Part shown: positions 1 through 13,800 of the stretch, piece after piece
Layout of the letters: each line of letters starts with the position of its first letter
Position numbering within the stretch: the first letter of the stretch is position 1
Source: an uncultured Eubacterium sp.
Lineage (GTDB): Bacteria > Bacillota_A > Clostridia > Lachnospirales > Lachnospiraceae
DNA: 13,800 nt
Direction of reading: 5' to 3'
NCBI GenBank assembly: GCA_947653505.1
Contig: CANTHI010000028.1
Location: 1-13,800, forward strand
Notes under the pieces: generated by a model
The model's input: only the letters and a program-made list of their open reading frames with translations
What the model was told of the DNA's origin: nothing
Database searches by the model: none
Position numbers and translations under genes: made by a program

Positions 1-204
1 GAGGATGCAGACGGCGTGGAGGATACAGGGGTCGGGGAAGATGTGTTCAGGGACGGCGGATGGAGCCTTACCGCAGAGACTGAAAATCTGATACCGGAAT
101 ACTTTTCGCCTTTTGAACAGCGCAATATTGATATTTATTATATGTCTGAAATCGAAGATGCCGTTTTGTTTAAAGGTGACGGAGATATGGACAGGCCAAA
201 TTAG
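1..204 (+). CDS. 3' end of an unidentified protein (partial)
   Basis: The reading frame is open from base 1 and stops at the TAG at 202-204, giving the last 67 residues of a protein that begins outside the window. The visible tail is strongly acidic, rich in Asp, Glu and Gly, and contains the aromatic stretch IPEYFSPFEQRNIDIYYM. I see no family motif, membrane segment or repeat that identifies it. It ends 21 bp before the GTG start of the E1 gene on the same strand, so it is probably cotranscribed with the cluster. A start at the ATG at 16 is possible but unlikely, since the frame is open upstream and no ribosome site precedes it. Function unknown. Confidence 0.6.
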   Translation, partial: EDADGVEDTGVGEDVFRDGGWSLTAETENLIPEYFSPFEQRNIDIYYMSEIEDAVLFKGDGDMDRPN

Positions 205-214
205 AAGACAGAAT

Positions 215-219
215 AAGGA
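215..219 (+). promoter_or_regulatory. Ribosome binding site for the E1 fusion gene
   Basis: AAGGA ends 6 nt before GTG 226 and 9 nt before GTG 229, but 18 nt before ATG 238. The spacing favours a GTG start. An alternative ATG 238 start, served by a weaker GGTGGTGAAG, would remove only four residues and change no domain. Confidence 0.45.
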
Positions 220-225
220 TCATGG

Positions 226-2211
226 GTGGTGAAGCTGATGGGAAAGCTGAATATAACAGATGCATACAGCCAGATGTATACGATACGCAGATTTGAAGAG
301 ACGCTGTTAAAATTGTTTTCGGAAAATAAACTGCAGGGCACGACGCATACCAGTATCGGACAGGAAGCAGATGCGGTGGGCGTGATGCGGCATGTCACGG
401 ACCGGGATTTTGTTTTCAGCAGTCACAGATGTCATGGGCAGTTTCTGGCATATGCGGGTGATGCCCGCATTCTGATGTCAGAAATTATGGGAAAAGAATC
501 CGGCATGTGCAAAGGACGCGGGGGAAGCCAGCACATCTGCTACAGACATTTTTATACGAACGGTGTTCAGGGAGGGATTGTGCCGGATGCGGCAGGGGTG
601 GCATTTGCAGAAAAGATCCGGGCAGGACAAAAGGATGAAGAAGCGCCTGTTGTGGTTGTATTTCTGGGAGACGGTACGCTTGGACAGGGAGTCGTGTATG
701 AAACCTTTAATATGGCGGCGCTTTACCATCTGCCGGTACTGTTTGTCATTGAGGAAAATGGCTATGCCATGTCAACAAAGACTGCGGATGCGGTTGCCGG
801 TAGTATCCGGCTGCGGGCAGAAGCGTTTGGGATCCACACGTGTGAGGTACAGTCCAATGATGTGTGTATCATCGATGCGGAAGCCGGGAAGGCGTTTCAT
901 TATGTACGAAAGCAGCAGCTGCCTTATTGCCTGATTCTGCATACTTACAGGCTGGGACCTCACAGTAAGGGAGATGACAACAGGGATAAAAAAGAGATAG
1001 AGGTATGGCAGAAACAGGATCCGCTGCGGATTGCAGAATCCAGACTGGATGAAGAAACCGCAAAAAAAATCAGGGAAAAGGCGGATCAGATGATTGCGGA
1101 AGCAGAAGGATATGCGAAGGGACAGAAAACGGATGCTTTTATTGCGGCTTCTACGGTGAAAGGCCGCCGCTTCAGGCCGGGACAGAAAAGTCTTTTGAAT
1201 CATAAAAAAATAAAGTGTGTGGAAAGCCTGAATCTTGGTCTGGAAAAAGCATTAAAAGACATGCCGGACGTAGTGCTGCTGGGAGAGGATATCTGTGATC
1301 CGTATGGCGGCGCTTTTAAAGTGACAAAAGGCCTTTCGGCGCAATATCCGGACCGGGTGATCAACACGCCGATCAGCGAAGCGGGAGTAGCCGGTATCTG
1401 TGCCGGGATGGCAATGAATGGAATGAAACCTGTGATGGAAATGATGTTTGGTGATTTCATTACGCTGTCTTTTGACCAGCTCTTAAACCATGCGGCAAAA
1501 TATAACGGGATGTATGCGGGTCAGGTAAAGGTACCGATGCTGATCAGGGCTCCGATGGGAGGAGGACGCGGGTATGGCGCGACCCACAGCCAGTCACTGG
1601 AAAAGTTTCTGATAGGAATCCCGGATCTTAAGGTATTTGCCCTGTCAAAGCTTATGGATGCCGGACAGTTTGTCTGCAGGATACTGGACGGACTGGATGG
1701 TCCGGCTGTGCTGATCGAGCATAAGAGGATGTATGCCGGACATCTGTATCTGGAAAAAGACGGCAGGATCGGATTATTTTCCGTGGAGGACAGCAGGACA
1801 GAGGCGCCGGTTTATAAGCTGTCCATCTTACCGCAGCAGCAGGCAGATCTGGCAGTTATCACCTATGGCGCAATGACAGATCTGGCCATGAACGCCGCAG
1901 AACAGCTGATGATGGAGGATGAGCTGAATATCAGTATCATTGTCCATACTTCCCTAAGCCCTCTGGATGTGGATGCCATGTCTGGATTTCTCGGGGATAC
2001 CAGAAACATTCTGACACTGGAAGAAGGGACTGGCATGGCCGGATGGGGCGCGGAAGTCATAGCGCAGCTGGCAGGGCGGCTGTCCGGACGAAGCTATGGG
2101 CGGCTGGCAGCCTGTGACTGTGTCATTCCATGCGGAATAGAGCTGGAGCAGAAGGTACTGCCGGATGAAAGAAAACTGATGGAACAGATAAGGAGAATGT
2201 GCAATGTCTGA
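226..2211 (+). CDS. 2-oxo acid dehydrogenase E1, alpha-beta fusion (TPP-dependent)
   Basis: This 661-residue protein joins both E1 subunits of a pyruvate/acetoin/branched-chain type 2-oxo acid dehydrogenase, which decarboxylates a 2-oxo acid on thiamine pyrophosphate and acylates a lipoyl domain. Residues about 10-320 are alpha-like: HRCHG (67-71), GRGGSQH (98-104), and the TPP/Mg motif running from GDG (148-150) to Asn178 in EENGYAMST. Residues about 330-661 are beta-like: LLGEDI (351-356), ISEAGVAG (383-390) with the expected catalytic Glu385, and PMGGGRGYGATHSQS (443-457). Such fusions are known, for example in Bacteroidetes, so the fusion is not itself new. The stop overlaps the next gene by 8 bp, implying translational coupling to the lipoyl protein. 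The 2-oxo acid used cannot be read from the sequence. Clostridia usually oxidise pyruvate with ferredoxin oxidoreductase, so a glycan-cluster E1 is more likely specialised than central-metabolic (inference). Confidence 0.9.
   Translation: MVKLMGKLNITDAYSQMYTIRRFEETLLKLFSENKLQGTTHTSIGQEADAVGVMRHVTDRDFVFSSHRCHGQFLAYAGDARILMSEIMGKESGMCKGRGGSQHICYRHFYTNGVQGGIVPDAAGVAFAEKIRAGQKDEEAPVVVVFLGDGTLGQGVVYETFNMAALYHLPVLFVIEENGYAMSTKTADAVAGSIRLRAEAFGIHTCEVQSNDVCIIDAEAGKAFHYVRKQQLPYCLILHTYRLGPHSKGDDNRDKKEIEVWQKQDPLRIAESRLDEETAKKIREKADQMIAEAEGYAKGQKTDAFIAASTVKGRRFRPGQKSLLNHKKIKCVESLNLGLEKALKDMPDVVLLGEDICDPYGGAFKVTKGLSAQYPDRVINTPISEAGVAGICAGMAMNGMKPVMEMMFGDFITLSFDQLLNHAAKYNGMYAGQVKVPMLIRAPMGGGRGYGATHSQSLEKFLIGIPDLKVFALSKLMDAGQFVCRILDGLDGPAVLIEHKRMYAGHLYLEKDGRIGLFSVEDSRTEAPVYKLSILPQQQADLAVITYGAMTDLAMNAAEQLMMEDELNISIIVHTSLSPLDVDAMSGFLGDTRNILTLEEGTGMAGWGAEVIAQLAGRLSGRSYGRLAACDCVIPCGIELEQKVLPDERKLMEQIRRMCNV
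2190..2196 (+). promoter_or_regulatory. Ribosome binding site for the lipoyl-acyltransferase gene
   Basis: AAGGAGA lies inside the E1 coding end, 7 nt before ATG 2204. It fixes that start and supports expression coupled to the E1 gene. Confidence 0.7.
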
Positions 2212-3247
2212 ACAAATACTGACAGCTCCAAGAATTGGGATCAATGACGAGTATGTGACGGTTGGAAGCTGGCTGGTCAAAAGCGGGACATACGTATCAG
2301 CCGGTCAGGAAATCGCTTCACTGGAAACAACAAAAGAAACAGAAAGTCTTAAGGCAGACTGTGACGGATATCTGCATTACCAGATTGACGCAGGAGAAGA
2401 GGTCAGGGTAGGAAGTCCGCTGGCTGTTTTATCGGACCAGCCGGATTATCAGTTTGAATCCCGCAGCCAGCCGCAGGAGACAGGTAAAATCACGGCAAAA
2501 GCGGAAAGGCTGATCAGAAAATACCAGGTAGATTTGTCAAAGCTGGCCCATCTGGAACTAATCAGGGAGAAAGATGTATGGGAACTGCTGGGGATCAGCC
2601 GTCCGGACGGACGAAATCAGGCAAATGATCTGATTGTCGTATCCGGAGGCGGATTCGCAAAAATGTGTATCGAGCTGGTCCGCCAGCAGAAGGCGTATCA
2701 TGTCTGTGGGATCCTGGATCCAAAGCTGGGGGAACATACAAAGGTGCTGGATGTTCCGGTCATCGGTACGGATGACGATATGGAAAAACTGCGCCAGCAG
2801 GGATATCTGCTGGCCGTAAACGCGATGGGAAGCATTGCCGCGGATAATACATCCGCCCGTTTTTTTCACAGAAAGACCATTTATGAAAAGCTAAAAGCAA
2901 ACGGGTTTTATCTGCCGCCGCTGATTCATCCATCGGCAGTCGTTTCTCCTTCTGCACAGCTTGGAGAAGGGACGCTGGTTATGGAACGTGCAGTGATTGG
3001 GAGTGAGGCGGTAATCGGTGATGACTGTATTATTAATACAGGCGCCATCGTATCGCATGACTGCAGGATCGCGGACCACGCAAGAATATCACCGGGAGCG
3101 GTTCTTGCAGGTGATGTTGCGATTGGTGAAAATACGTTAATTGGCATGGGAGTAACGATTTATATCGGCGTCAGGATTGGCAGAAATGTGATTCTTACAA
3201 ATGGCCGGAATATTACAGGAGATGTAGCGGACAATGCCATATTGTGA
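2204..3247 (+). CDS. Hybrid E2: lipoyl domain + subunit-binding segment + NeuD/PglD-type sugar N-acyltransferase
   Basis: This 347-residue protein has three parts. Residues 1-79 form a lipoyl domain: ASLETTKETESLKADCDGY carries the predicted lipoylated Lys44, and the second half is DAGEEVRVGSPLAVL. A biotin domain would show a Met-Lys-Met motif, which is absent. Residues about 95-130 resemble a peripheral subunit-binding domain, the E1/E3 docking unit of E2 proteins (AERLIRKYQVDLSKL, then REKDVWELLG). Residues 141-347 match NeuD/PglD acyltransferases: a nucleotide-sugar-binding N-subdomain (IVVSGGGFAKMCIELV), then left-handed beta-helix hexapeptides (IHPSAVVSPSAQLGEGT onward) with the family catalytic His at 285 in VSHDCRIADHA. 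There is no E2 CAT domain and no HxxxDG motif. The protein ends at DVADNAIL, without the G-x-P-A-K tail common in CoA-using relatives. It lies between E1 and lipoate ligase genes. I infer direct transfer of an acyl group from dihydrolipoamide to a UDP-4-amino sugar. Domain calls are firm; the reaction is inferred. Confidence 0.88.
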   Translation: MSEQILTAPRIGINDEYVTVGSWLVKSGTYVSAGQEIASLETTKETESLKADCDGYLHYQIDAGEEVRVGSPLAVLSDQPDYQFESRSQPQETGKITAKAERLIRKYQVDLSKLAHLELIREKDVWELLGISRPDGRNQANDLIVVSGGGFAKMCIELVRQQKAYHVCGILDPKLGEHTKVLDVPVIGTDDDMEKLRQQGYLLAVNAMGSIAADNTSARFFHRKTIYEKLKANGFYLPPLIHPSAVVSPSAQLGEGTLVMERAVIGSEAVIGDDCIINTGAIVSHDCRIADHARISPGAVLAGDVAIGENTLIGMGVTIYIGVRIGRNVILTNGRNITGDVADNAIL

Positions 3248-4262
3248 GTGTGGGAAAAATACGGAGATTTTTATACATACTGCGTCCACCTTTGATCCAT
3301 ATCAGAATCTGGCATATGAAAATGCCCTGCTGGAGTATGTCAGCAGGCGTACGCGGCAGGGATATGCCGTATGCGGGCTGTTTCTGTGGCAGAGCAGCAA
3401 TGCGGTTGTATTTGGCCGGAACCAGAGCATTACGCGGGAATGCAATATGGACGTTGTGGAAACATACCAGATCAGACTTGTCAGACGTTTTTCCGGAGGC
3501 GGAGCCGTTTATCAGGATATGGGCAATCTGAATTTTTCTTTTATATCATCAGAGAGTGTGCACAGTACACAGAAAAATCTGGATATTATTTTAAGAGCCC
3601 TGAAAAAGCTTGGCATTCTGGCAGAAGCGTCCGGCAGAAATGATCTTGTGGCAGATGGCAGAAAAATATCAGGAAATGCGTTCTTTCATTCCGGCCAGGC
3701 AGTCCTGCATCATGGAACGCTTCTGGTGTGTGAAGATCTGGCAATGGCACAAAAGTGTCTTTCTCCGGATTTATATAAATTAAAAGCCAACGGGGTATCA
3801 TCCGTCAGAAGCAGGATCATGAATCTGGCTGATTTATCTGAAGCCTGCAGTGTTCCAGCCGCCGCAGACCGGATTCGGGCAGAATTTCTGGATACATGGC
3901 ACACCAGCAGATACCAGAGTCCCGGAATCTGTACAGAAGCATACGAACAGACATGGAACATGCTCCGTTCCAGAGAATGGATTATGGGACATGCATGCAA
4001 TGACTGCCGCACGGTACATGCAGCGTGGGGAACCTTACGGTATCAGATAAAGGAAAAAGACGGATGTATAGCAGAATTTATATATGAGACAGACGCGCTG
4101 GAGCTGGATTTTCTGGACCGCCTGTCGGACCGTCTGCGGGGAATGCCGTTATCAAAGAAGCATTTTGACGCGTTTGTAAAAAATCCGGATCTGGAAATGA
4201 CAGAGCTGGAAAAAGATATGATGCATTCTGTCATAAATAAAATCAGAAAGGAGCTGGTGTAA
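3234..4262 (+). CDS. lplA: Lipoate-protein ligase A (LplA-like)
   Basis: This 342-residue ligase activates lipoate with ATP and attaches it to lipoyl-domain lysines. Residues 84-103 carry the lipoate-binding signature (RRFSGGGAVYQDMGNLNFSF). GRNDLVADGRKISGNA (134-149) contains the expected catalytic Lys144, and SVRSRIMNL (190-198) is a further family motif. The C-terminal part (from about 245: EWIMGHACND, then WGTLRYQIKEKDGCIAEFI) corresponds to the LplA accessory domain, so this is a full-length bipartite ligase. Its start overlaps the lipoyl-acyltransferase gene by 14 bp, with AGGAGA 11 nt upstream. That tight linkage says its main client is probably Lys44 of that protein. It could also serve a glycine cleavage H protein elsewhere in the genome. 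Confidence 0.92.
   Translation: MPYCECGKNTEIFIHTASTFDPYQNLAYENALLEYVSRRTRQGYAVCGLFLWQSSNAVVFGRNQSITRECNMDVVETYQIRLVRRFSGGGAVYQDMGNLNFSFISSESVHSTQKNLDIILRALKKLGILAEASGRNDLVADGRKISGNAFFHSGQAVLHHGTLLVCEDLAMAQKCLSPDLYKLKANGVSSVRSRIMNLADLSEACSVPAAADRIRAEFLDTWHTSRYQSPGICTEAYEQTWNMLRSREWIMGHACNDCRTVHAAWGTLRYQIKEKDGCIAEFIYETDALELDFLDRLSDRLRGMPLSKKHFDAFVKNPDLEMTELEKDMMHSVINKIRKELV
4247..4253 (+). promoter_or_regulatory. Ribosome binding site deciding a TTG start for E3
   Basis: AAAGGAG, inside the end of the lplA gene, lies 11 nt before TTG 4265. The reading from TTG gives MESIYDLLIIGAGPGG, the expected N-terminus of a dihydrolipoamide dehydrogenase. No in-frame ATG fits without cutting into the FAD-binding fold. 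Confidence 0.6.
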
Positions 4263-4264
4263 AG

Positions 4265-5635
4265 TTGGAAAGCATATATGATCTTCTGATTATCGGTGCA
4301 GGTCCGGGAGGATATGAAGCGGCGTGTCTGGCGGGAAAAGCCGGATTAAAGACGGCGTTAATAGAAAAAAAGACTCCTGGAGGGGTCTGTCTGAATCAGG
4401 GCTGCATTCCATTTAAAAGCTATCTGCATATTGCCGGTGTCAGAGAAGAAGCGGGCCGGCTTGTGGCGCAGGGACTGCTTGAAAATACAGCGGAGATTCT
4501 GGTAAACCAGAAAGCGGTATACCGTTATAAAAATGCGGTTGTAAAAGCTCTGGGAAAAAGTATGGAAGCGGGGCTGAAAAATGCCGGTGTCAGTCTGATA
4601 CATGCCACAGCGTTTATCCAGAGTGTGGAAGCGCATGGGATATGTGTATCGGCAGATGGGACTGTTATAACAGGAAAAAAGCTTCTGATCGCGACAGGTT
4701 CCAGGGAGGCCCGCCTTTTGTGCGACAGGGAGCGGCTGTCTTATCCGGTCGTATACAGCGACGGGATGCTGGAAATACAGTCCCTGCCGGAAAACGTTTT
4801 CATCGTTGGCGCGGGAGTGATCGGTCTGGAGGCAGCGGATTATTTTCACGCATGTGGATGCAAAGTGACGGTAATAGAATCCGGGACGTGTATTGGAGGC
4901 GGAAATCTGGATCAGGAAATAGCGGATACACTGCTGAAATGTCTCGCCAGAAAAGGAATCACGTTTTATCTGGACACAACGGTTGCGGAATTTCAAAAAG
5001 ATGCCGTTATGTTAACATCCTCAAATGGCAGCTTTTATCAGGAACCAGATTTTGTAATGATCGCTGTGGGCAGAAAGGCGGCTACAGACGGACTGGGGCT
5101 TGCGCATACAGATATTGCGTATGATGAAGACGGAATCAAGATCAATGCATACGGTCAGACTACAAATCCTTCCGTCTATGCATGTGGCGATGTAACCGGA
5201 AAGCCGATGCTGGCTCATGCGGCTATCCGGCAGGCGGATATAGCGGTAGCGCATCTGTCCGGAAAAAATCCGTCTGTTTCGGACGCCTGTATACCGGCAG
5301 TTATTTATACAAATCCGGAAGCGCTAAACGTGGGATTATCTGAAGAATGCTGCAGAAAAAACCAGATTTCTTATGTGGCGAAGTCGCTGCCAATGACGTA
5401 TAGCGGAAAATATTTTGCAGAGCACGGGAAAGATCCGGCCCGTGCGAAAATGATTGCCGACGCGGATACCGGAACGCTGCTTGGATTTCATATGGTGGGA
5501 AACGGAGCGGCAGAAATCGCACTGGCAGCGGAACTGATGATGACCCGGCATATGACGGTACAGGAGATCAGACAGCTGGTGTTTCCACATCCGGCGGTTG
5601 GGGAGATCATTCGTGAGCTGGCCGGATGCTTTTAA
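4265..5635 (+). CDS. lpdA: Dihydrolipoamide dehydrogenase (E3)
   Basis: This 456-residue flavoprotein re-oxidises dihydrolipoamide with NAD+, closing the oxo-acid dehydrogenase cycle. It shows the FAD-binding IIGAGPGG (9-16), the redox-active disulfide GGVCLNQGCIPFK (39-51; Cys42, Cys47), a second dinucleotide fold (FIVGAGVIGLEAADYF), the FAD motif YACGDVTGKPMLAHAA, and a dimerisation domain ending in FPHPAVGE with the catalytic His442 and Glu447. Length is normal for the family (450-475). The first His of the common H-x-HP motif is Phe here, which is not a catalytic loss. It starts 2 bp after lplA with a TTG codon. A generic disulfide reductase is a weaker alternative, given the canonical CxxxxC and C-terminal HP-E pair and the E1 and lipoyl neighbours. 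Confidence 0.93.
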   Translation: MESIYDLLIIGAGPGGYEAACLAGKAGLKTALIEKKTPGGVCLNQGCIPFKSYLHIAGVREEAGRLVAQGLLENTAEILVNQKAVYRYKNAVVKALGKSMEAGLKNAGVSLIHATAFIQSVEAHGICVSADGTVITGKKLLIATGSREARLLCDRERLSYPVVYSDGMLEIQSLPENVFIVGAGVIGLEAADYFHACGCKVTVIESGTCIGGGNLDQEIADTLLKCLARKGITFYLDTTVAEFQKDAVMLTSSNGSFYQEPDFVMIAVGRKAATDGLGLAHTDIAYDEDGIKINAYGQTTNPSVYACGDVTGKPMLAHAAIRQADIAVAHLSGKNPSVSDACIPAVIYTNPEALNVGLSEECCRKNQISYVAKSLPMTYSGKYFAEHGKDPARAKMIADADTGTLLGFHMVGNGAAEIALAAELMMTRHMTVQEIRQLVFPHPAVGEIIRELAGCF

Positions 5636-5644
5636 GACTGCTAT

Positions 5645-5700
5645 AAAGCAAAACAAAGCAATAAAAAGCAATAGAAAGCAATAGAAAGCAATATAAAGTG
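5645..5700 (+). repeat. 10-bp tandem repeat, AAAGCAATAG-like, in the intermodule gap
   Basis: AAAGCA occurs at 5645, 5655, 5665, 5675 and 5685, exactly 10 bp apart, and a sixth degenerate copy (AAAGTG) starts at 5695. Linkers are AAAC, ATAA, ATAG, ATAG and ATAT. The array fills most of the 76-bp gap between the E3 gene and capE and abuts the capE ribosome site. No hairpin or T-run terminator is present. A-rich runs spaced near one helical turn could bend DNA, or the array could vary in copy number and so alter the leader. Both functions are inference. Confidence 0.8.
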
Positions 5701-5711
5701 GGAGAAATAAA

Positions 5712-6758
5712 ATGTCATCATATAAAGACGCGACACTATTAATTACAGGAGGCACCGGCAGCTTTGGACATTCCGTTTTAAAGCATTTTCTTACGACTGA
5801 CATTAAAGAAATACGGATTTTCAGCAGGGATGAGAAAAAGCAGGATGATATGCGTCACAATCTGCAGGCAGTCTGTCCGGATGCTGCCAGTAAAGTGAAG
5901 TTTTACATAGGCAATGTCCGTAATCTCCAGTCCATCTGTGACGCCATGACGGGGGTAGATTATGTATTTCATGCGGCAGCTTTAAAACAGGTACCAAGCT
6001 GTGAATTTTTTCCGATGGAAGCGGTACGAACGAATGTCGCCGGTACGGATAATCTGCTGCATGCAGCAGTCGGGGCAGGTGTAAAAAAGATCGTATGCCT
6101 GAGTACGGACAAGGCTGCGTATCCGATTAACGCAATGGGGACTTCAAAAGCGATGATGGAGCATGTCGTGCGGGCAAACGCGCGGGTGGCGGCGGAGCGG
6201 GGCAGTACGGTCATCTGCTGCACGCGGTATGGAAATGTGATGTGTTCCAGAGGATCTGTCATTCCCCTGTTTGTCGGACAGATTAAAAGCGGACAGCCGG
6301 TCACGATTACCAATCCGCAGATGACCCGTTTTCTGATGGATCTGGATGAGGCGGTAGAGCTGGTAAAGTTTGCGTTTGAACATGCAAGACCAGGAGATCT
6401 GTTTATCCAGAAAGCGGACGCCTGTACGATTGATACGCTGGCTAAGGCGGTACAGCGGATTTTTGGAAATACGGGCAGGAAGATGATTGGCAGCCGTCAT
6501 GGCGAAAAGTTGTATGAAACGCTGATGACAAAAGAAGAGCATATGCGTGCTGAAGATATGGGCGGTTATTACCGTGTCTGCGCAGATAACAGGGATCTGA
6601 ACTATGATAAATATTTTACGGACGGGGAAGCAGCGGATGAATCGGTCGAAGCGTATACGAGCCATAATACAAGACTTCTGAATGTGGAGGAGACGATGAA
6701 AAAGCTTCTTGCGACTGATTATGTGCAGACACAGTTAGGAGACGGGGTACATCCATGA
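5712..6758 (+). CDS. capE: UDP-GlcNAc 4,6-dehydratase/5-epimerase, CapE/FnlA type
   Basis: This 348-residue extended SDR enzyme is the first step to UDP-L-FucNAc. It removes water across C4-C6 of UDP-GlcNAc and epimerises C5 to the L-arabino 4-keto sugar. It shows the cofactor loop GGTGSFG (13-19), FSRDEKK (37-43), AAALKQVPSCEFFP (88-101), and the active-site segment STDKAAYPINAMGTSK (121-136), where the usual SDR Tyr of YxxxK is Met132 with Lys136, as in CapE/FnlA. The C-terminal YYRVCADNRDLNYDKYF and SHNTRLLNVEE separate this group from the D-series PseB/FlaA1 and CapD enzymes. GGGAG 7 nt before the ATG sets the start. The next two genes complete the same pathway in order. A PseB-type role is the alternative but fits the neighbours less well. 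Confidence 0.9.
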   Translation: MSSYKDATLLITGGTGSFGHSVLKHFLTTDIKEIRIFSRDEKKQDDMRHNLQAVCPDAASKVKFYIGNVRNLQSICDAMTGVDYVFHAAALKQVPSCEFFPMEAVRTNVAGTDNLLHAAVGAGVKKIVCLSTDKAAYPINAMGTSKAMMEHVVRANARVAAERGSTVICCTRYGNVMCSRGSVIPLFVGQIKSGQPVTITNPQMTRFLMDLDEAVELVKFAFEHARPGDLFIQKADACTIDTLAKAVQRIFGNTGRKMIGSRHGEKLYETLMTKEEHMRAEDMGGYYRVCADNRDLNYDKYFTDGEAADESVEAYTSHNTRLLNVEETMKKLLATDYVQTQLGDGVHP

Positions 6759-7945
6759 TGAAAATATTAGTGACAGGCGCGAAAGGATTTGTTGGAAAAA
6801 ATCTGACAGAAAACCTGAAAAATATCCGGGATAAGAAAGACCGGACAAGACCAGGACTTTCTATTGGTGAAATTTATGAATACGATACGGGTCTGGATGA
6901 AAGCGTTTTGGAGCGTTATTGTACAGACTGTGATTTTGTCTTTCATCTGGCAGGCGTGAACCGTCCGGAGGATCCGCGGGAATTTATGGATGGAAATTAT
7001 GGGCTGACAGCAAAGCTGCTGGGGTATTTAAAGGCGCACGGCAATTCCTGTCCGGTGATGCTGTCCTCATCCATACAGGCATCCCTGACCGGACGCTTTG
7101 TGGATTCTGCATATGGAAAAAGCAAGCTTGCAGCGGAAAAGCTGCTGTCGGCATATGCCAGTGAGACAGAAAGCAGGGTTCTCATATACCGGTTACAAAA
7201 TCTTTTTGGAAAATGGTGCAGGCCTGCGTATAATTCTGTTGTCGCAACGTTTTGCCATGCGGTTGCAAATGATCTGCCTTACGTGGTGGATGACCGGGAT
7301 ACGGAGCTGGAGCTGTTATATATCGATGATCTGGTAAAAGAACTGACAGACGCGCTGGAGTCAAAAGAGCACCGCAGCGGGAACAGCGTATATTGTTATG
7401 TGCCGGTGACATACCAGGTGACGCTTGGAAAGATTTGTGAGCTGCTGGAACAGTTTCACAGGCAGCCTGAGACGCTGATGTTTGCAAAGCTGCCGGATCC
7501 TTCTTTTGAAAAGAAGCTGTATGCTGTCTATATTTCTTTTCTGCCGGAAGAAAAAGCGATTTTTGACCTGCCTTCTGTCACAGATTCCCGCGGGTCTTTT
7601 ACAGAGTTTTTTAAGACGCGGTCTTTTGGACAGTTCGGCATCAATATCTCAAAACCTGGCATGACAAAAGGGCAGCACTGGCATAATACCAAGCTGGAGA
7701 TTTTTCTTGTTGTATCCGGTCAGGGCATGATAAGGGAGCGCAAAATCGGGACGGACGAAAATGGTGAATTGTATCCGGTCAGGGAATACCGTGTCAGTGG
7801 TGACAGGCTGCAGGCCGTTTATATGCTGCCAGGATACACACATAGTCTTATAAATTTATCAGACAGGGAAGATCTTGTGACGGTAATCTGGGCAGATGAA
7901 CGGTTCCGGCCGCAGCAGCCGGATACTTTTTCGGAGGATGTATAG
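6755..7945 (+). CDS. capF: CapF/FnlB-type bifunctional epimerase-reductase with C-terminal cupin
   Basis: This 396-residue enzyme is the second step to UDP-L-FucNAc: C3 epimerisation of the 4-keto sugar by the cupin domain, then C4 reduction by the SDR domain. The SDR part (1 to about 265) has VTGAKGFVGKN with Gly8, Gly11 and Gly14, FHLAGVNRPED, and the catalytic YGKSK (Tyr120, Lys124). The cupin part (about 270-396) carries a metal site, KGQHWHNTKLE, with His308, His310 and Glu315, plus His363 in PGYTHS. The IWADERF near the end is also typical. Length is slightly above S. aureus CapF. It overlaps capE by 4 bp (ATGA), with AGGAGA 12 nt before ATG 6755; ATG 6758 is an equally possible start. 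Confidence 0.92.
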   Translation: MMKILVTGAKGFVGKNLTENLKNIRDKKDRTRPGLSIGEIYEYDTGLDESVLERYCTDCDFVFHLAGVNRPEDPREFMDGNYGLTAKLLGYLKAHGNSCPVMLSSSIQASLTGRFVDSAYGKSKLAAEKLLSAYASETESRVLIYRLQNLFGKWCRPAYNSVVATFCHAVANDLPYVVDDRDTELELLYIDDLVKELTDALESKEHRSGNSVYCYVPVTYQVTLGKICELLEQFHRQPETLMFAKLPDPSFEKKLYAVYISFLPEEKAIFDLPSVTDSRGSFTEFFKTRSFGQFGINISKPGMTKGQHWHNTKLEIFLVVSGQGMIRERKIGTDENGELYPVREYRVSGDRLQAVYMLPGYTHSLINLSDREDLVTVIWADERFRPQQPDTFSEDV

Positions 7946-7972
7946 GATATGTGCACAAAATAAGGAGAATGT

Positions 7973-9166
7973 ATGAAACTGCCGGAATGGAAAAATAATG
8001 GAAGATTAAAACTGCTGATCATTGTTGGCACAAGGCCTGAGATTATCAGACTGTCTGAGGTGATTAAAAAATGCAGGAAATGTTTTGACACGATGTTATG
8101 CCATACAGGGCAGAATTATGATTATTATTTAAATGGCGTTTTTTTTAACGAGCTGGGGCTGGAAGCCGCGGATATAACGCTGGATGTGGCGGCTGGCAGT
8201 CCTGGCGCTACGATCGGAAATATTATCGCTGATTCGTATCAGCTGATGGACGGATTGAAGCCGGACGCGTTGCTTGTACTGGGAGATACCAATTCCTGCC
8301 TGTCTGCCATCAGTGCGAAACGGCTGCATATCCCAATCTTTCATATGGAAGCTGGCAACCGGTGCAAGGATGAATGTCTGCCGGAGGAGACAAACCGGCG
8401 CATTGTCGATATTATCTCAGATGTAAATCTGGCCTATTCCGGACATGCGCGCAGATATCTGGCTGAATGCGGCCTGCCGAAAGAGCGCACGTATGTTACC
8501 GGTTCTCCGATGGCGGAGGTACTAAGCTGCCATCTGCAGGAAATCCTGCATTCGGATGTGCTGGCACGGCTGGAAAAAGAAACGGGGGTATGTCTGATAC
8601 CGGAAAACTATATACTGCTGTCAGCGCACAGAGAGGAAAATATTGATACGGAGAAAAATTTTCTGTCTTTGTTTCAGGCGGTAAACGCCCTGGCCGGACG
8701 TTACCAGATGCCGGTCTTATATTCGTGTCATCCCAGAAGCCGCAGACGGCTGGAGCAGATGGAAGCGTCCGGGGATTTTCATCTGGCATCCGGAATCCTT
8801 GCGCATGAGCCTTTGGGCTTTTTTGATTATAATTATCTGCAGGCGCACGCGTTTTGCGTCGTTTCAGACAGCGGTACACTGCCGGAAGAAAGCAGCTATT
8901 TTACTTCTATTGGCAGACATTTTCCAGCTGTCTGCATCCGTACAAGCACAGAGCGTCCGGAAGCGCTCGACAAAGCATGCTTTGTACTGGCAGGTATCGA
9001 AAAGGACGGGCTGCTGCAGGCTGTGGAGATGGCCACGGCGCTGGATGCGTCTGGCTGGCATGGAACGCCGGTGCCGGATTATACGGATCTTAATGTGAGC
9101 ACAAAAGTGGTAACGATTATCCAGAGTTATACAGGGATTATTAACAGGTTTGTATGGAGGAAATGA
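7973..9166 (+). CDS. capG: UDP-sugar 2-epimerase, CapG/FnlC type (makes UDP-L-FucNAc)
   Basis: This 397-residue member of the non-hydrolysing UDP-GlcNAc 2-epimerase family is the last step to UDP-L-FucNAc, inverting C2 of the CapF product. Visible family segments are VGTRPEIIRLSEV (18-30), HTGQNYDY (44-51), LGDTNS (103-108), HMEAGNRCKDECLPEETNR (124-142), SAHREEN (217-223), SCHPRSRRR, and SDSGTLPEES, which binds UDP. HMEAGNRCKDE is characteristic of the FnlC/WbjD group rather than of WecB, and the position after CapE and CapF agrees. The start is set by AAGGAG 5 nt upstream (7962-7967). The gap to capF is 27 bp and to the next gene 3 bp. A plain WecB/MnaA making UDP-ManNAc is the alternative. 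Confidence 0.9.
   Translation: MKLPEWKNNGRLKLLIIVGTRPEIIRLSEVIKKCRKCFDTMLCHTGQNYDYYLNGVFFNELGLEAADITLDVAAGSPGATIGNIIADSYQLMDGLKPDALLVLGDTNSCLSAISAKRLHIPIFHMEAGNRCKDECLPEETNRRIVDIISDVNLAYSGHARRYLAECGLPKERTYVTGSPMAEVLSCHLQEILHSDVLARLEKETGVCLIPENYILLSAHREENIDTEKNFLSLFQAVNALAGRYQMPVLYSCHPRSRRRLEQMEASGDFHLASGILAHEPLGFFDYNYLQAHAFCVVSDSGTLPEESSYFTSIGRHFPAVCIRTSTERPEALDKACFVLAGIEKDGLLQAVEMATALDASGWHGTPVPDYTDLNVSTKVVTIIQSYTGIINRFVWRK
9156..9160 (+). promoter_or_regulatory. Ribosome binding site for a GTG start
   Basis: GGAGG inside the end of capG lies 9 nt before GTG 9170 and supports that codon. The next in-frame ATG (9245) lies 25 codons in, within the family's normal N-terminal extension, and has no comparable site. 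Confidence 0.6.
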
Positions 9167-9169
9167 TAC

Positions 9170-10399
9170 GTGGGAGAAATAATCGGTGGCTTTTTGGATC
9201 TGGACAGCTTTATCAGCCAGCATGTGATCAGACGGGAACAGAGTATGTTTCTGGATGATATAAAAGCAGGCTGGAACAGCATACAAACATCCATTTCTAA
9301 TGCAGACATACTCGTGATCGGAGGAGCCGGGAGTATCGGAAGCAGCTTTATCAAAGCGATTCTGCCCTTTGGACCGTCTGAACTGGTCATTGCAGACATC
9401 AATGAAAATGCACTTACTGAGCTGACCCGTGATCTGCGGTCAGAAAAAGGAACACAGGTGCCAGACAGCTATAGGACCTATCCGGTGGATTATGCGTCCG
9501 CGGCATTTGAAAAAATGTTCCGTGCGCATGGGGGATTCCGCATTGTGGCGAATTTTGCGGCGCATAAGCACGTCCGGACCGAAAAAGATATCTATGCGAT
9601 GGAGGCGATGCTTTACAATAATGTCATCCATGCCAGGACACTGCTGGAGCTTTTATGTGAGTTTCCACCAGAAAGTTATTTCTGTGTGTCTACCGATAAA
9701 GCGGTGAATCCGGTGAGTATCATGGGAGCCAGCAAACGCCTGATGGAAGATCTGATCTTTAGCTATTCGGACCGGTTTGCGGTAAAAACGGCAAGATTTG
9801 CAAATGTTGCATTTTCCAATGGTTCCCTGCCGGCAGGATTTCTGGAACGGATCCGCAGGCAGCAGCCGGTTTCGGCGCCATCCGATATCCGGCGGTATTT
9901 TGTTTCACCAGAAGAATCCGGTCAGATTTGTATGCTTGCATGTACACTTGGCAATAACAGGGAAATTTTTTTCCCAAAACTGGAAAAAGCGCAGATGATG
10001 ACATTTGATGGGATTGCAAAGGAGCTTCTTACAGCCTGTGGTTATGAGCCGCTGCCGTGCCAGTCGGATGAAGAGGCCGTTGCGGCGGCTCTGGAGCTGA
10101 GACGCGGAGCACGTGCCTGGCCGGTGCGTTTTTCAAAATCAGATACATCAGGAGAAAAGCCGTATGAGGAGTTTTACACAAAGACAGAGCATGTGGAACG
10201 CGGGAGATTTCAGGCTCTGGGAGTTATTACGGATAAGGAAAGACCAGACAGAAAAAAACTGGACCAGATGATCCTGCAGCTGCAGGAAGCATTTGAAAAA
10301 AGAGATACTGATAAGGACATGATTGTCCGGATTCTGCAGTCCTATCTTCCGCATTTTGCTCATAGAGAGACCGGAAAGTCGTTAGATGACAAAATGTAA
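9170..10399 (+). CDS. Soluble NDP-sugar 4,6-dehydratase-like protein (CapD/PglF family, LegB-like role)
   Basis: This 409-residue protein has an N-terminal extension of about 45 residues, then an SDR fold of the polysaccharide-biosynthesis CapD family: VIGGAGSIGSSF (49-60), ADINENALTELTRDLR (75-90), FAAHKHVRTE (129-138), and STDKAVNPVSIMGASKR (174-190) with the Thr175-Asp176-Lys177 triad expected for 4,6-dehydratases and Met185/Lys189 in place of YxxxK. A late SGEKPYEEF corresponds to the family's RPGEKLYEEL motif. There are no membrane segments, unlike the PglF-type protein at the end of the operon. The likely reaction is UDP-GlcNAc to its 4-keto-6-deoxy sugar, feeding the LegC-like aminotransferase that follows 26 bp later. 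A different UDP-sugar substrate or a non-redundant epimerase role cannot be excluded. Confidence 0.8.
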   Translation: MGEIIGGFLDLDSFISQHVIRREQSMFLDDIKAGWNSIQTSISNADILVIGGAGSIGSSFIKAILPFGPSELVIADINENALTELTRDLRSEKGTQVPDSYRTYPVDYASAAFEKMFRAHGGFRIVANFAAHKHVRTEKDIYAMEAMLYNNVIHARTLLELLCEFPPESYFCVSTDKAVNPVSIMGASKRLMEDLIFSYSDRFAVKTARFANVAFSNGSLPAGFLERIRRQQPVSAPSDIRRYFVSPEESGQICMLACTLGNNREIFFPKLEKAQMMTFDGIAKELLTACGYEPLPCQSDEEAVAAALELRRGARAWPVRFSKSDTSGEKPYEEFYTKTEHVERGRFQALGVITDKERPDRKKLDQMILQLQEAFEKRDTDKDMIVRILQSYLPHFAHRETGKSLDDKM

Positions 10400-10425
10400 A
10401 CAAAAAAGCAAAGGAAGTATAGAAA

Positions 10426-11637
10426 ATGGGTAAATACATCCCTCTTTCCGTGCCGAATCTGGCCGGAAATGAACAAAAATATGTGAAACATGCAATCGCG
10501 CAGACCTGGGTTTCTACGGGCGGCGCATATGTGACAGAGTTTGAGCGGCAGCTTGCCGGATTTCTGGGCGTGGAGCAGGTAGCAGCCTGTCAGAGCGGTA
10601 CCTCGGCGCTGCATCTGTCACTGGCAGAGTGCGGAGTGCGGCATCAGGATGTGGTGATTGTACCAGCGCTTACGTTTATAGCCGCGGTGAATCCGGTTTT
10701 ATATCAGTCTGCGGAGCCGGTATTTATGGATTGTGATGACAGTCTTTGTATGGATCCGGTAAAATTAAGGGCATTTTGCGAACAGGAGTGTGCGTATTGT
10801 GACGGAAAGCTGCTGTATCATAAAAAACATGTCAAAGCGCTGGTGATTGTACATGTGTTTGGAAATATGGCTGATATGGAAGCATTGATGGATATCGCAA
10901 AGGCTTATCGCCTGACCGTGATAGAAGATGCGACAGAAGCGCTTGGCACACGTTATGAGAGCGGGCGCTATGCCGGAAAGTATGCGGGTACGATCGGGGA
11001 TTTCGGTGCGTTTAGCTTTAATGGAAATAAAATCATTACAACAGGCGGAGGCGGGGCAGTCACTGCAAAGAACCCTGCCCATACAGAGCATATGCGTTAT
11101 CTTTCGGCGCAGGCAAAAGATGATCCCCGGTTTTATATTCATCATGAGGCAGGGTATAATTACCGTATGACGAATCTGCAGGCAGCGCTTGGCGTGGCAC
11201 AGATGGAACAGCTGCCAGCTTTTTTAGAGATAAAACAGAAAAATTATGTACGGTATCAGACACTCATTGCGGATATACCATATTGTGAGCTGCTGCCGTT
11301 TCGTGACGGTACAAGGCCCAATTACTGGTTTTATTCGCTGAACATCCATGTAAAAGCTCTTGCGGCCGATGTGCGCAAAATTATGGAAGAGCTGGAACAT
11401 CAGGGGATTCAGACCAGGATGATCTGGGGGCTGATTCATGAGCAGAAGCCTTATAAAGACTGCTACGCTTATCAGATCCGGCAGGCAGTGGCTTATGGGA
11501 AAAGTATTTTAAATCTGCCGTGTTCTACAAATCTGACAGAGGATGATGTGAATTATGTAAGCAGCCGGATCCGGGAGCTGTCTGACCATGCCGCCTTTTG
11601 GCGGCAGGAGAAAAACAGTGAGGAGTCGTTATCATGA
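10426..11637 (+). CDS. PLP-dependent sugar aminotransferase, DegT/DnrJ/EryC1/StrS family, LegC/PglE-like
   Basis: This 403-residue aminotransferase is predicted to transfer an amino group from glutamate to C4 of a UDP-4-keto-6-deoxy-HexNAc, giving UDP-2-acetamido-4-amino-2,4,6-trideoxyhexose. It has the N-terminal IPLSVPNLAGNEQKYV typical of LegC-type members, QSGTSALHLSL (56-66) for PLP phosphate binding, VIEDATEALGTRY (165-177) with the ring-binding Asp168, and the Schiff-base Lys202 in SFNGNKIITTGGGGAV. The C-terminal half has the usual YNYRMTNLQAALGVAQ. AAGGAAG (10411-10417) precedes the ATG. It sits between two 4,6-dehydratase genes. Its 4-amino product is the natural acceptor for the PglD/NeuD-like domain encoded at 2204-3247, the only such acyltransferase in the window. 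Confidence 0.9.
   Translation: MGKYIPLSVPNLAGNEQKYVKHAIAQTWVSTGGAYVTEFERQLAGFLGVEQVAACQSGTSALHLSLAECGVRHQDVVIVPALTFIAAVNPVLYQSAEPVFMDCDDSLCMDPVKLRAFCEQECAYCDGKLLYHKKHVKALVIVHVFGNMADMEALMDIAKAYRLTVIEDATEALGTRYESGRYAGKYAGTIGDFGAFSFNGNKIITTGGGGAVTAKNPAHTEHMRYLSAQAKDDPRFYIHHEAGYNYRMTNLQAALGVAQMEQLPAFLEIKQKNYVRYQTLIADIPYCELLPFRDGTRPNYWFYSLNIHVKALAADVRKIMEELEHQGIQTRMIWGLIHEQKPYKDCYAYQIRQAVAYGKSILNLPCSTNLTEDDVNYVSSRIRELSDHAAFWRQEKNSEESLS
11589..11606 (+). other. Perfect 7-bp hairpin near the end of the aminotransferase gene
   Basis: TGCCGCC-TTTT-GGCGGCA forms a perfect 7-bp stem with a 4-nt loop, still inside the coding region. It ends 13 nt before the GAGGAG ribosome site of the next gene. No T-run follows, so it is not an intrinsic terminator. 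An effect on translation coupling or mRNA stability is possible but unproven. Confidence 0.5.
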
Positions 11638-13484
11638 GCAGGAAAGCCGGAACAGGCGCAAAAGCGGCGGCGCTTCTGCTGCTGGATATTCTGGCAGTAT
11701 ACCTGTCCAGTTTTCTGGCGCTGGCGATCCGCTTTGAACTGAATATTTCAAAAATCGAGCCCCGATTTATAGAATCCGCTTACCGCTATCTGGCGGTGAA
11801 TATCATCTGCACGGTTGTTGTCTTTTATTTCATGAGGCTGTATGCAAGCCTGTGGAAGTATGCAAGTATGCAGGAAATGTGCAGTGTTGTGTTTGCTGTG
11901 GCGCTTTCCGGTGTTCTGCAGTTTGCGGGAATGCATGGATTGGGAATGCAGATGCCGCGCAGTTATTATATTCTGTATGTTCTGCTGCTGCTCATTCTGG
12001 TATCATGTACCCGGTTTGGTTATCGTTTTTTCCGCTTTTTTCGCAACGGGCACGGTTCCGTGCAAAAAGGCGTTGCCAACGTTATGGTCATTGGAGCGGG
12101 GGATGCCGGAGCGGCGATTTTAAAAGAAATGCGTCTGAGTAAATTTGTGACACAGCAGGTCAGGTGCTTTATCGATGACAGTCCATCCAAGCAGGGAAAA
12201 TATATTCAGGGATGTCCGGTGGCAGGAGGCAGGGACCAGATTCTGGAAGCGGTATGGGAGTACGGGATCGAAAAAATCATCATCGCGATACCGACGGCGT
12301 CCGGCAGGACAATACGGGAAATTCTGGAAATCTGCCAGCAGACCGGGTGCGAGGTTAAAATCCTGCCAGGCGCCTATCAGCTGATTAACGGAGAGGTCAG
12401 TATCTCAAAGCTGCGTGAAGTAAAAATAGAAGATCTGCTTGGCCGGGATCAGATCCGGATCGATCTGGATGAAATACCAGGCTATGTCAAAGGGCAGACG
12501 GTACTTGTAACCGGAGCCGGAGGCTCCATCGGGAGCGAGATCTGCCGCCAGCTGGCACGGCATAAGGTAGGCAGACTGATTCTTGTCGATATCTATGAGA
12601 ACAATATCTACGATATCCAGCAGGAGCTGGCCCATGACTATCCGCAGCTGCAACTGACCGCGCTGATCGCTTCCGTGCGCAACACACACCGGATCCATGA
12701 GATTATGGAAACATACAGACCGGCTGTCGTCTATCATGCGGCGGCGCATAAGCACGTCCCGCTGATGGAAGAAAGTCCGAATGAAGCGGTCAAAAATAAT
12801 GTCTTTGGCACTTACAAGACAGCTGAGGCAGCCGGCAGATACGGTGTCAGGCGGTTTGTGCTGATTTCTACAGACAAGGCGGTGAATCCTACGAATATTA
12901 TGGGGGCTTCCAAGCGTATCTGTGAAATGATTATCCAGATGATGGACAAGCGTTATAAGACAGAATTTGCGGCAGTACGCTTTGGAAATGTGATCGGCAG
13001 CAATGGAAGTGTGATTCCACTGTTTCAAAAGCAGATCGCGCAGGGCGGCCCGGTCACGGTAACACATCCGGATATCGTGCGTTATTTCATGACGATTCCG
13101 GAGGCTGTGGCGCTTGTACTGCAGGCCGGAGCCTATGCAAAGGGAGGAGAGATCTTTGTGCTGGATATGGGTGAGCCAGTAAAGATTCTGGATCTGGCCA
13201 GAAATCTGATCCGCCTGTCTGGCTGTACGGCAGGGGAGGATATTGAAATCCGCTTTACCGGCCTGCGGCCCGGGGAAAAGCTGTATGAAGAGCTTTTAAT
13301 GGATGAAGAAGGGCTCGCAGATACGAAAAACAGTCTGATACATATTGGAAAGCCGCTGGATTTTGATGAAGAAAAACTGATGGAACAGTTAAAGGAGCTA
13401 AAGAAAGCCGCAGATGGAGACAGTGCGGGAATCCGGCGTATGGTAAAGGAAATCGTGCCGACGTATCGGATGAATGAAAAATAA
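11634..13484 (+). CDS. Membrane-anchored UDP-GlcNAc 4,6-dehydratase, PglF/CapD type
   Basis: This 616-residue inner-membrane enzyme converts UDP-GlcNAc to UDP-2-acetamido-2,6-dideoxy-alpha-D-xylo-hexos-4-ulose. Four hydrophobic segments lie at about 11-33, 51-69, 82-103 and 111-128. A first Rossmann fold follows (VIGAGDAG, 152-159), then the catalytic SDR domain: TGAGGSIG (293-300), YHAAAHKHVPLMEE (367-380), and STDKAVNPTNIMGASKR (412-428) with Thr413-Asp414-Lys415 and Met423/Lys427. GLRPGEKLYEELLMDEEG (543-560) is the conserved late motif. The length is typical of PglF/CapD/WbpM. It overlaps the aminotransferase gene by 4 bp, with GAGGAG 8 nt before the ATG. It is the last gene of the operon. 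Together with the aminotransferase and the PglD-like domain it mirrors the PglF-PglE-PglD route to UDP-diNAc-bacillosamine. Confidence 0.93.
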   Translation: MSRKAGTGAKAAALLLLDILAVYLSSFLALAIRFELNISKIEPRFIESAYRYLAVNIICTVVVFYFMRLYASLWKYASMQEMCSVVFAVALSGVLQFAGMHGLGMQMPRSYYILYVLLLLILVSCTRFGYRFFRFFRNGHGSVQKGVANVMVIGAGDAGAAILKEMRLSKFVTQQVRCFIDDSPSKQGKYIQGCPVAGGRDQILEAVWEYGIEKIIIAIPTASGRTIREILEICQQTGCEVKILPGAYQLINGEVSISKLREVKIEDLLGRDQIRIDLDEIPGYVKGQTVLVTGAGGSIGSEICRQLARHKVGRLILVDIYENNIYDIQQELAHDYPQLQLTALIASVRNTHRIHEIMETYRPAVVYHAAAHKHVPLMEESPNEAVKNNVFGTYKTAEAAGRYGVRRFVLISTDKAVNPTNIMGASKRICEMIIQMMDKRYKTEFAAVRFGNVIGSNGSVIPLFQKQIAQGGPVTVTHPDIVRYFMTIPEAVALVLQAGAYAKGGEIFVLDMGEPVKILDLARNLIRLSGCTAGEDIEIRFTGLRPGEKLYEELLMDEEGLADTKNSLIHIGKPLDFDEEKLMEQLKELKKAADGDSAGIRRMVKEIVPTYRMNEK

Positions 13485-13500
13485 ATACACAGACTATCCG

Positions 13501-13537
13501 GCGGGAAGGATACAGCAATGTCCTTCCCGCTATTTTT
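13501..13537 (+). terminator. Intrinsic terminator closing the operon
   Basis: A perfect 10-bp stem (GCGGGAAGGA at 13501-13510 with TCCTTCCCGC at 13521-13530) around a 10-nt loop is followed by TATTTTT. It begins 16 bp after the stop codon of the PglF-type gene, as expected for a rho-independent terminator at the end of the transcription unit. Confidence 0.9.
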
Positions 13538-13540
13538 CAC

Positions 13541-13800
13541 GGGTCAGGAACGCGCAGGGTCTGCCCTATAGGCACGAACTTAAGTGGAAATGCAACAATT
13601 TACATAAAAATGTTACTTTTTGGCTATGCGGACGCCGGATGGGAGGCGTTGGCCTGTCTGCCTGTGACTTTTCCAGAATGTAAGAAGCTCCAGGCATTCT
13701 GCTTCTGGTCTATGGTACCGGACGGGCGCGACACCTGGTTCGCTCCTGGCTACCGCCAGCAGCTAAAGGTGCCGCTTCGGCTTCGCCGCCTGTGTATCGG
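13541..13800. other. Region after the operon with no recognised gene
   Basis: These 260 bases follow the terminator. One plus-strand frame is open from ATG 13610 to the window edge (about 63 codons, beginning MLLFGYADAGWEALACLPV). It has no convincing ribosome site and no family I recognise, so it may be the start of a gene or chance. The GC-rich last 120 bases contain short hairpins, for example CTGGC-TACC-GCCAG (13746-13759) and GCCG-CTT-CGGC near 13771. That could point to a structured RNA or a repeat element, but no known class is recognisable. No tRNA, rRNA or clear promoter is seen. Confidence 0.3.

Follow-up and report, generated by a model that had tools for sequence, protein, structure and literature searches.

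Introduction

The closest described relatives of the system considered here are the 2-oxo acid dehydrogenase complexes (pyruvate, branched-chain and 2-oxoglutarate) and acetoin dehydrogenase, with which it shares E1 alpha and beta parts bearing thiamine diphosphate (ThDP) motifs, a lipoyl domain, a subunit-binding domain, an E3 and a lipoate ligase. It differs from the 2-oxo acid dehydrogenase complexes in that the catalytic (CAT) domain of E2, which acylates coenzyme A (CoA), is swapped for an unrelated left-handed beta-helix sugar acyltransferase. The system is encoded in a 13,800-nucleotide stretch of DNA (hereafter, the window) from an uncultured Eubacterium sp. of the Lachnospiraceae (GenBank assembly GCA_947653505.1, contig CANTHI010000028.1, positions 1 to 13,800), and its central element is a gene whose product, here called the fusion protein, joins lipoyl, subunit-binding-like and NeuD/PglD domains in a single chain. 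Judging from its sequence and from the company it keeps, this protein would probably pass an acyl group made by E1 directly from S-acyl-dihydrolipoyl-Lys44 to a nucleotide amino sugar, without CoA.

The acyltransferase half of the fusion protein resembles NeuD, PglD, PerB and VioB (family TIGR03570) in its Rossmann-like PglD_N domain and beta-helix, its catalytic His, nucleotide-binding Asp and oxyanion Gly, and its pathway neighbours; unlike these proteins, the fusion protein has N-terminal lipoyl and subunit-binding domains, linkage to an E1, Asn333 in place of the usual Ala, and no GxPA tail. Donors other than CoA occur among beta-helix acyltransferases: LpxD takes its acyl group from a carrier protein. 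According to the available sections of one account, LpxA, another beta-helix acyltransferase, uses acyl-acyl carrier protein (acyl-ACP), a precedent, within this fold, for donation by a carrier protein (PMC6408518). In LpxA and LpxD that donor is a separate protein bearing the acyl group on phosphopantetheine, whereas the fusion protein carries a lipoyl arm on its own chain.

Lipoyl proteins are also found outside the classical complexes. The available portion of one source counted five characterised lipoate-dependent complexes in 2018, together with a role in sulfur oxidation, and places LbpA of Hdr-like sulfur oxidation, a lipoyl protein served by specific ligases, outside those five (PMC6067878); as described there, LbpA is a GcvH-like single domain that serves sulfur oxidation and not acyl transfer to a sugar. 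The "lipoylation" of flagellar glycans concerns fatty acid chains, as far as the sections consulted of that report go (PMC4875605). No description of the lipoyl-NeuD design was present among the matches listed in the open-access literature, a scope that left out most subscription journals and bioRxiv preprints.

Domain architecture of the fusion protein

The first-pass annotation had read three parts in the fusion protein, namely a lipoyl motif at Lys44, a subunit-binding-like segment, and a NeuD/PglD domain with a catalytic His285 occupying the place of a CAT domain, and all of them hold. Pfam Biotin_lipoyl covers residues 6-76 (33.7 bits, cut-off 22.1), PglD_N covers residues 143-211 (34.3 bits, cut-off 23.4), and Hexapep scores 62.9 bits against a cut-off of 27. 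The protein also exceeds the cut-off of the NCBIfam NeuD family TIGR03570 (178.4 bits against 160.8) and lies below those of the LpxD and LpxA models (TIGR01853, 62.6 against 242.5 bits; TIGR01852, 51.7 against 231.05 bits). The three Pfam families are matched in 66, 66 and 67, respectively, of 67 aligned members of the family. In a single profile-profile comparison with 14 canonical E2 subunit-binding domains, excised by motif from 20 regions fetched, segment 93-132 was found to resemble these domains (probability 96%, E 3.6e-9); Pfam E3_binding matches the segment in just 1 of the 67 members. The E2 CAT family PF00198 has no match at E <= 1 among the ten proteins of the window.

A biotinyl lysine is preceded by Ala/Val-Met. 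The fusion protein instead has Glu at position -3 relative to Lys44, which speaks for lipoyl. The AlphaFold2 model (mean predicted local distance difference test score, pLDDT, 92.9; predicted template modelling score, pTM, 0.63) folds residues 1-78 as a lipoyl domain, places short helices within 98-129, and folds residues 140-347 as a NeuD domain; the top Foldseek match of the model in the PDB is the perosamine N-acetyltransferase PerB (E 3e-17, target template modelling score 0.88, 38% identity).

Conservation across genomes

Protein homologues were sampled as the best 120 of 1111 at E 1e-3, including the window's own protein, and genome loci (numbered L001-L080) as the best 80 of 112 relatives from a scan of species genomes. 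Among the listed homologues, Lys44 is K in all 118 that reach the position (two are truncated at the N-terminus), with Glu at -3 in 117 of the 118, and His285 is H in 120 of 120. The loci show the same constancy: Lys44 is kept in 79 of the 79 that have a lipoyl part (79/80 overall) and His285 in 80/80, such that the domain order, which the earlier reading had proposed to look for in other genomes, is conserved at 79 loci in many phyla. These loci span Bacillota, Chloroflexota, Bacteroidota, Pseudomonadota, Gemmatimonadota, Verrucomicrobiota, Myxococcota, Actinomycetota and Thermodesulfobacteriota; most are metagenome-assembled genomes (MAGs), and the isolates include Dokdonia pacifica DSM 25597, Lujinxingia vulgaris TMQ2 and Lewinella sp. 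IMCC34183. The fusion protein is real and widespread.

The sole locus of the 80 without a lipoyl part, L059, lies on a short contig whose plus-strand frames contain no lipoyl motif; its gene (L059:2102-2905) encodes a NeuD of the fused clade, with neither lipoyl part nor E1 on the contig, and secondary loss is possible. In the class and phylum of one Clostridia genome, G002, the system is rare: of 14 matches at E 1e-40 in the class (148 genomes), the lipoyl part was covered in G002 alone, and E1 beta, searched at E 1e-62 in the phylum (398 genomes), was likewise matched in G002 alone.

A dedicated E1

Small corrections to the first-pass annotation concern the gene neighbourhood: the E1 next to the fusion protein is a single alpha-beta fusion, and a lipoate ligase and an E3 come directly after the fusion protein. 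The reading frame of the fusion protein overlaps both of its neighbours, E1 upstream and ligase downstream, and E3 comes next. In comparison with solved E1s, the window E1 is closest to the pyruvate type.

At 74 of the 80 genome loci, an E1 beta gene precedes the fusion protein on the same strand (61 counted by script and 13 by inspection where stop-to-stop open frames overlap), within about 340 bases in 70 and with one intervening gene in four (L001, L037, L045 and L068). Three more loci have an E1 nearby on the opposite strand (L064, L076 and L078), and L029 begins at a contig edge. The alpha and beta parts are fused in 23/80, and a lipoate ligase plus E3 occur in the cluster at 3/80 (L001, L002 and L046), in addition to the window. 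In both L063 (8937-9971) and L064 (6553-7842) the fusion protein is immediately preceded by another gene; the two genes are related, and the L063 copy is sulfotransferase-like.

In a maximum-likelihood tree, the E1 betas of the system fall on one side of a single branch (support 100/100), with 79 rows against 24 other E1s from the same genomes. The 79 rows comprise 76 loci, the window, L144 and L155 (no row could be used from L029, L059, L063 or L072), and the 24 are a selection from the 70 matches with lower scores in 25 genomes. A gap in score separates the two sets, with 26 group matches at or above 204.4 bits and the best of the 70 others at 175.6. The catalytic Glu of E1 beta is present in 78 of 79 rows (the other has a gap) and the His in 79 of 79. 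The E1 is a dedicated partner of single-clade ancestry.

Three Clostridia MAGs of unknown completeness, G001 (L001), G002 (L002) and G021 (L046), have few other lipoate-related genes. In each, the operon supplies the sole strong E1_dh match, the sole near-full-length E3 match (next best at most 120 bits) and the sole lipoate-ligase (LplA) match. GcvH has no match in any of the three; E2 CAT has none in G002 or G021 and only weak ones, in a 313-residue frame, in G001. Other lipoyl/biotin domains are limited to one frame of 102-140 residues in each genome, candidate biotin carriers by size, with three further weak matches in G001. In G003 and G009, the two other Clostridia examined, the clusters are without ligase and E3, and CAT, E3, ligase and GcvH are encoded elsewhere in the genome.

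The NeuD active site

The fused NeuDs form one clade (82 rows including L059, against 22 stand-alone NeuDs; support 100/99), with long branches among the stand-alone proteins. The strongest differences between 81 fused and 22 stand-alone NeuDs are at residue 333, which is Asn in 81/81 fused and Ala in 17/22 stand-alone proteins, and at residue 284, which is Ser in 80/81 fused and Glu or Asp in 17/22 stand-alone proteins. A C-terminal GxPA-type tail is found in 0/81 fused proteins (L061 being cut by the contig end) against 21/22 stand-alone ones, and none occurs in the last 30 residues of the 120 listed homologues; AGxxWP-like tails end 61 of the 81 fused proteins, and the window protein ends short.

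The available sections of a report on the related Pcryo_0637 describe a tail whose proline, the counterpart of the one in GxPA, turns cis on CoA binding, the tail then closing and returning to its own subunit, with His142 as the likely base, the Gly160 NH as oxyanion hole, and Asp40 and Asp41 binding the nucleotide (PMC8040287). In the window protein His285 and Gly303 are 18 residues apart, a spacing that matches His142 and Gly160 as reported in that text, and Asp172 of the nucleotide site is kept in 80/81 fused NeuDs, the window included. Because His285, Gly303 and Asp172 are retained while the tail and residue 333 have changed, the sugar side of the site appears to have been kept and the CoA side altered.

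In L057 (at about 10900-11300), a stand-alone NeuD adjoins the fused one, together with an aminotransferase and a short-chain dehydrogenase/reductase (SDR), and one sugar might there be acylated twice.

A second fusion type

At L064, the reading frame after E1 beta (9015-10613, minus strand) encodes a lipoyl domain (ETTK), a segment that by eye resembles a subunit-binding domain, and a hexapeptide acyltransferase of another kind. This second fusion follows E1 in Actinomycetota, its named relatives being Gaiellaceae, and a further case is listed in the table. The lipoyl Pfam domain is present in 120/120 listed homologues (the best 120 of 933, in a search that scored only the candidates sharing most words), and a GVPA motif is kept in 32/32 second-type fusions. 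The structure model is weak (mean pLDDT 69.3).

Within the class of genome G029, 17 of 199 genomes have an E1 of the system's type (at least 270 bits, other listed matches reaching at most 218). In seven of the 17 the second fusion adjoins E1, and in six a fused NeuD is encoded close to E1 on the opposite strand. The NeuD fusion of L197 is divergent; the L182 stretch is short and without a fusion, but its E1 is that of L078, which has one; and no fusion was found in the stretches examined of L191 and L193.

Proposed mechanism and alternative explanations

In the proposed cycle, the lipoate ligase would lipoylate Lys44, and E1 with ThDP would decarboxylate a 2-oxo acid and acylate the lipoyl group. 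Flexible linkers, with 17 residues to span from Lys44 to His285 in the window protein and 17 to 44 in the family, would then let the arm swing into an active site formed where subunits of a NeuD trimer meet; there His285 would deprotonate the sugar amine and the Gly303 backbone would stabilise the oxyanion, as in CoA-using relatives; E3 would finally reoxidise the dihydrolipoyl group with NAD+. Direct transfer is favoured because the E1 is dedicated, CAT is missing, the GxPA tail is gone, and there are genomes in which nearly all lipoate-related genes lie in the operon.

Several observations weigh against this reading. The closest structural neighbours of the modelled NeuD domain are CoA-using enzymes. 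The Asp at position 173, which would help uracil binding, is present in 71/81 fused NeuDs but is Pro in the window, and the ligase and E3 of the window lie below the NCBI equivalog cut-offs, though over those of Pfam. The GDG pattern was seen in 71/75 E1 alpha frames, L059 has no E1 on its short contig, and L063 has none within 10 kb. The E2 CAT family was matched in 26 of 30 genomes searched (all except G002, G006, G018 and G021), so few genomes lack a possible alternative partner, and those few are MAGs and perhaps incomplete. Two candidate signs were also discarded. The correlation of E1 and fusion protein distances (r 0.93 over 77 loci, 0.94 over 30) is uninformative about coupling, since a control with the aminotransferase reaches almost the same value (0.92). 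Nor can loss of the tail be taken as a general mark of CoA independence, given that GVPA is retained throughout the second fusion type.

Characterised stand-alone NeuDs use CoA, according to the portions of the literature available, and the fused domain scores over the NeuD family cut-off; it could accordingly be an ordinary CoA-dependent N-acetyltransferase, with the lipoyl domain tethering it to E1 and E3 or serving a redox or regulatory role. We regard this as unlikely, given that the CoA-linked tail is gone, that an E1 clade of its own, conservation of the subunit-binding domain and an operon lipoate ligase would be a high price for a mere tether, and that the arm recurs in fusion with another type of acyltransferase beside the same kind of E1. 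It is likewise unlikely, in our estimate, that the NeuD domain is a replacement E2 core that hands CoA the acyl group carried by the lipoyl arm, the resulting acyl-CoA then acylating the sugar at the same site or elsewhere. The binding of CoA by fold neighbours and the GVPA motif of the second fusion type would suit such a core, whereas the complete absence of the CoA-closing tail and the invariant Asn333, at a position where stand-alone NeuDs mostly have Ala, would not; nor would a CoA transferase need the sugar side, of which Asp172, His285 and Gly303 are kept. Nothing was found in favour of a chimera, an assembly error or a decayed E2, an explanation that is practically eliminated by the 79 lipoyl-bearing genome loci in many phyla, their E1 linkage, the 118/118 lysines and the confident model.

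Direct transfer from the lipoyl arm may extend beyond NeuD. We lean towards a modular class in which one E1 clade loads a lipoyl arm and the beta-helix acyltransferase that this arm serves can be exchanged, NeuD acting on amino sugars and an isoleucine-patch type on other acceptors, with oxidative decarboxylation paying for CoA-free glycan acylation, and which may be the sole use of lipoic acid in some Clostridia.

Genomic context

The window contains ten consecutive plus-strand genes, of which the last six are nucleotide-sugar genes (Table 1); no tRNAs, and no Rfam families at gathering score, were found in it. The dehydratase, which we take to be PglF-like, and the LegC-family aminotransferase would supply the acceptor, a UDP-4-amino sugar of the UDP-4-amino-4,6-dideoxy-N-acetylglucosamine type, the nucleotide being deduced from the pathway genes. 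The SDR at 9170-10399 belongs to the Polysacc_synt_2 family and reaches no NCBI equivalog cut-off; its relatives adjoin a similar aminotransferase in L036 and L057.

Table 1. Coordinates of the features discussed, in the window unless a locus is named
Feature	Position	Strand	Evidence and remarks
E1 alpha-beta fusion, 661 residues	226..2211	+	Pfam E1_dh, Transket_pyr, Transketolase_C; ThDP motif GDG at residue 148, catalytic beta Glu385, beta His454
Lipoyl - subunit-binding - NeuD fusion protein, 347 residues, ATG start	2204..3247	+	Pfam, NCBIfam, model
Lipoyl domain, residues 1-78, ETTKE motif	2204..2437	+	Pfam, alignment, model
Lys44 codon, expected lipoylation site	2333..2335	+	Invariance in homologues and loci
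Peripheral-subunit-binding-like domain, residues 93-132	2480..2599	+	Profile-profile match, helices in model
NeuD/PglD left-handed beta-helix acyltransferase domain, residues 140-347	2621..3244	+	Pfam, NCBIfam, Foldseek
His285 codon, expected catalytic base	3056..3058	+	Aligned with PerB His; invariant
Asn333 codon	3200..3202	+	Invariant in fused family; mostly Ala in stand-alone NeuD
Lipoate-protein ligase (LplA family), 342 residues	3234..4262	+	Over Pfam cut-offs; NCBI equivalog 254.9 bits, below cut-off 280
E3, dihydrolipoyl dehydrogenase family, 456 residues	4265..5635	+	Over Pfam cut-offs; NCBI equivalog 377.1 bits, below cut-off 408.8
Four more nucleotide-sugar genes: FnlA-like, FnlB/WbcJ-like, WecB-like, SDR	5712..10399	+	All four below NCBI equivalog cut-offs
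LegC-family aminotransferase, would make the amino-sugar acceptor	10426..11637	+	438 bits, cut-off 420
Presumed PglF-like nucleoside diphosphate-sugar 4,6-dehydratase with CoA_binding_3 domain	11634..13484	+	Polysacc_synt_2 405.3 bits; no NCBI equivalog cut-off reached
Second fusion, further case	L180:2698-4275	+	Directly after the same kind of E1

Similar settings recur elsewhere. By clustering with scanned representatives, a DegT aminotransferase was found in 29/80 loci and a phosphoglycosyltransferase in 29/80. In L002, PseB, PseC, PseF and PseI adjoin the E1, fusion protein, ligase and E3, and in L006 a LegC-type aminotransferase, NeuC and NeuB precede E1 and the fusion protein. This gene position suits an N-acyltransferase of amino sugars, the scan for a separate PseH or LegH having covered some but not every one of the pathway genes. 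Formyltransferase-like and PIG-L deacetylase-like genes (L002:13480-14936) follow the pseudaminic-type operon of L002.

Biological implications

Were CoA the donor after all, the finding would shrink to a variant of the NeuD family. If direct transfer is correct, the fusion protein and its E1 would constitute a further kind of lipoate-dependent complex, in which a sugar replaces CoA as the acyl acceptor, and thus a new use of lipoic acid. Such a complex could explain how bacteria attach acyl groups for which there is no CoA route, would provide a reason for a lipoate ligase in genomes that have no classical complexes, and would represent a natural module for CoA-free sugar acylation.

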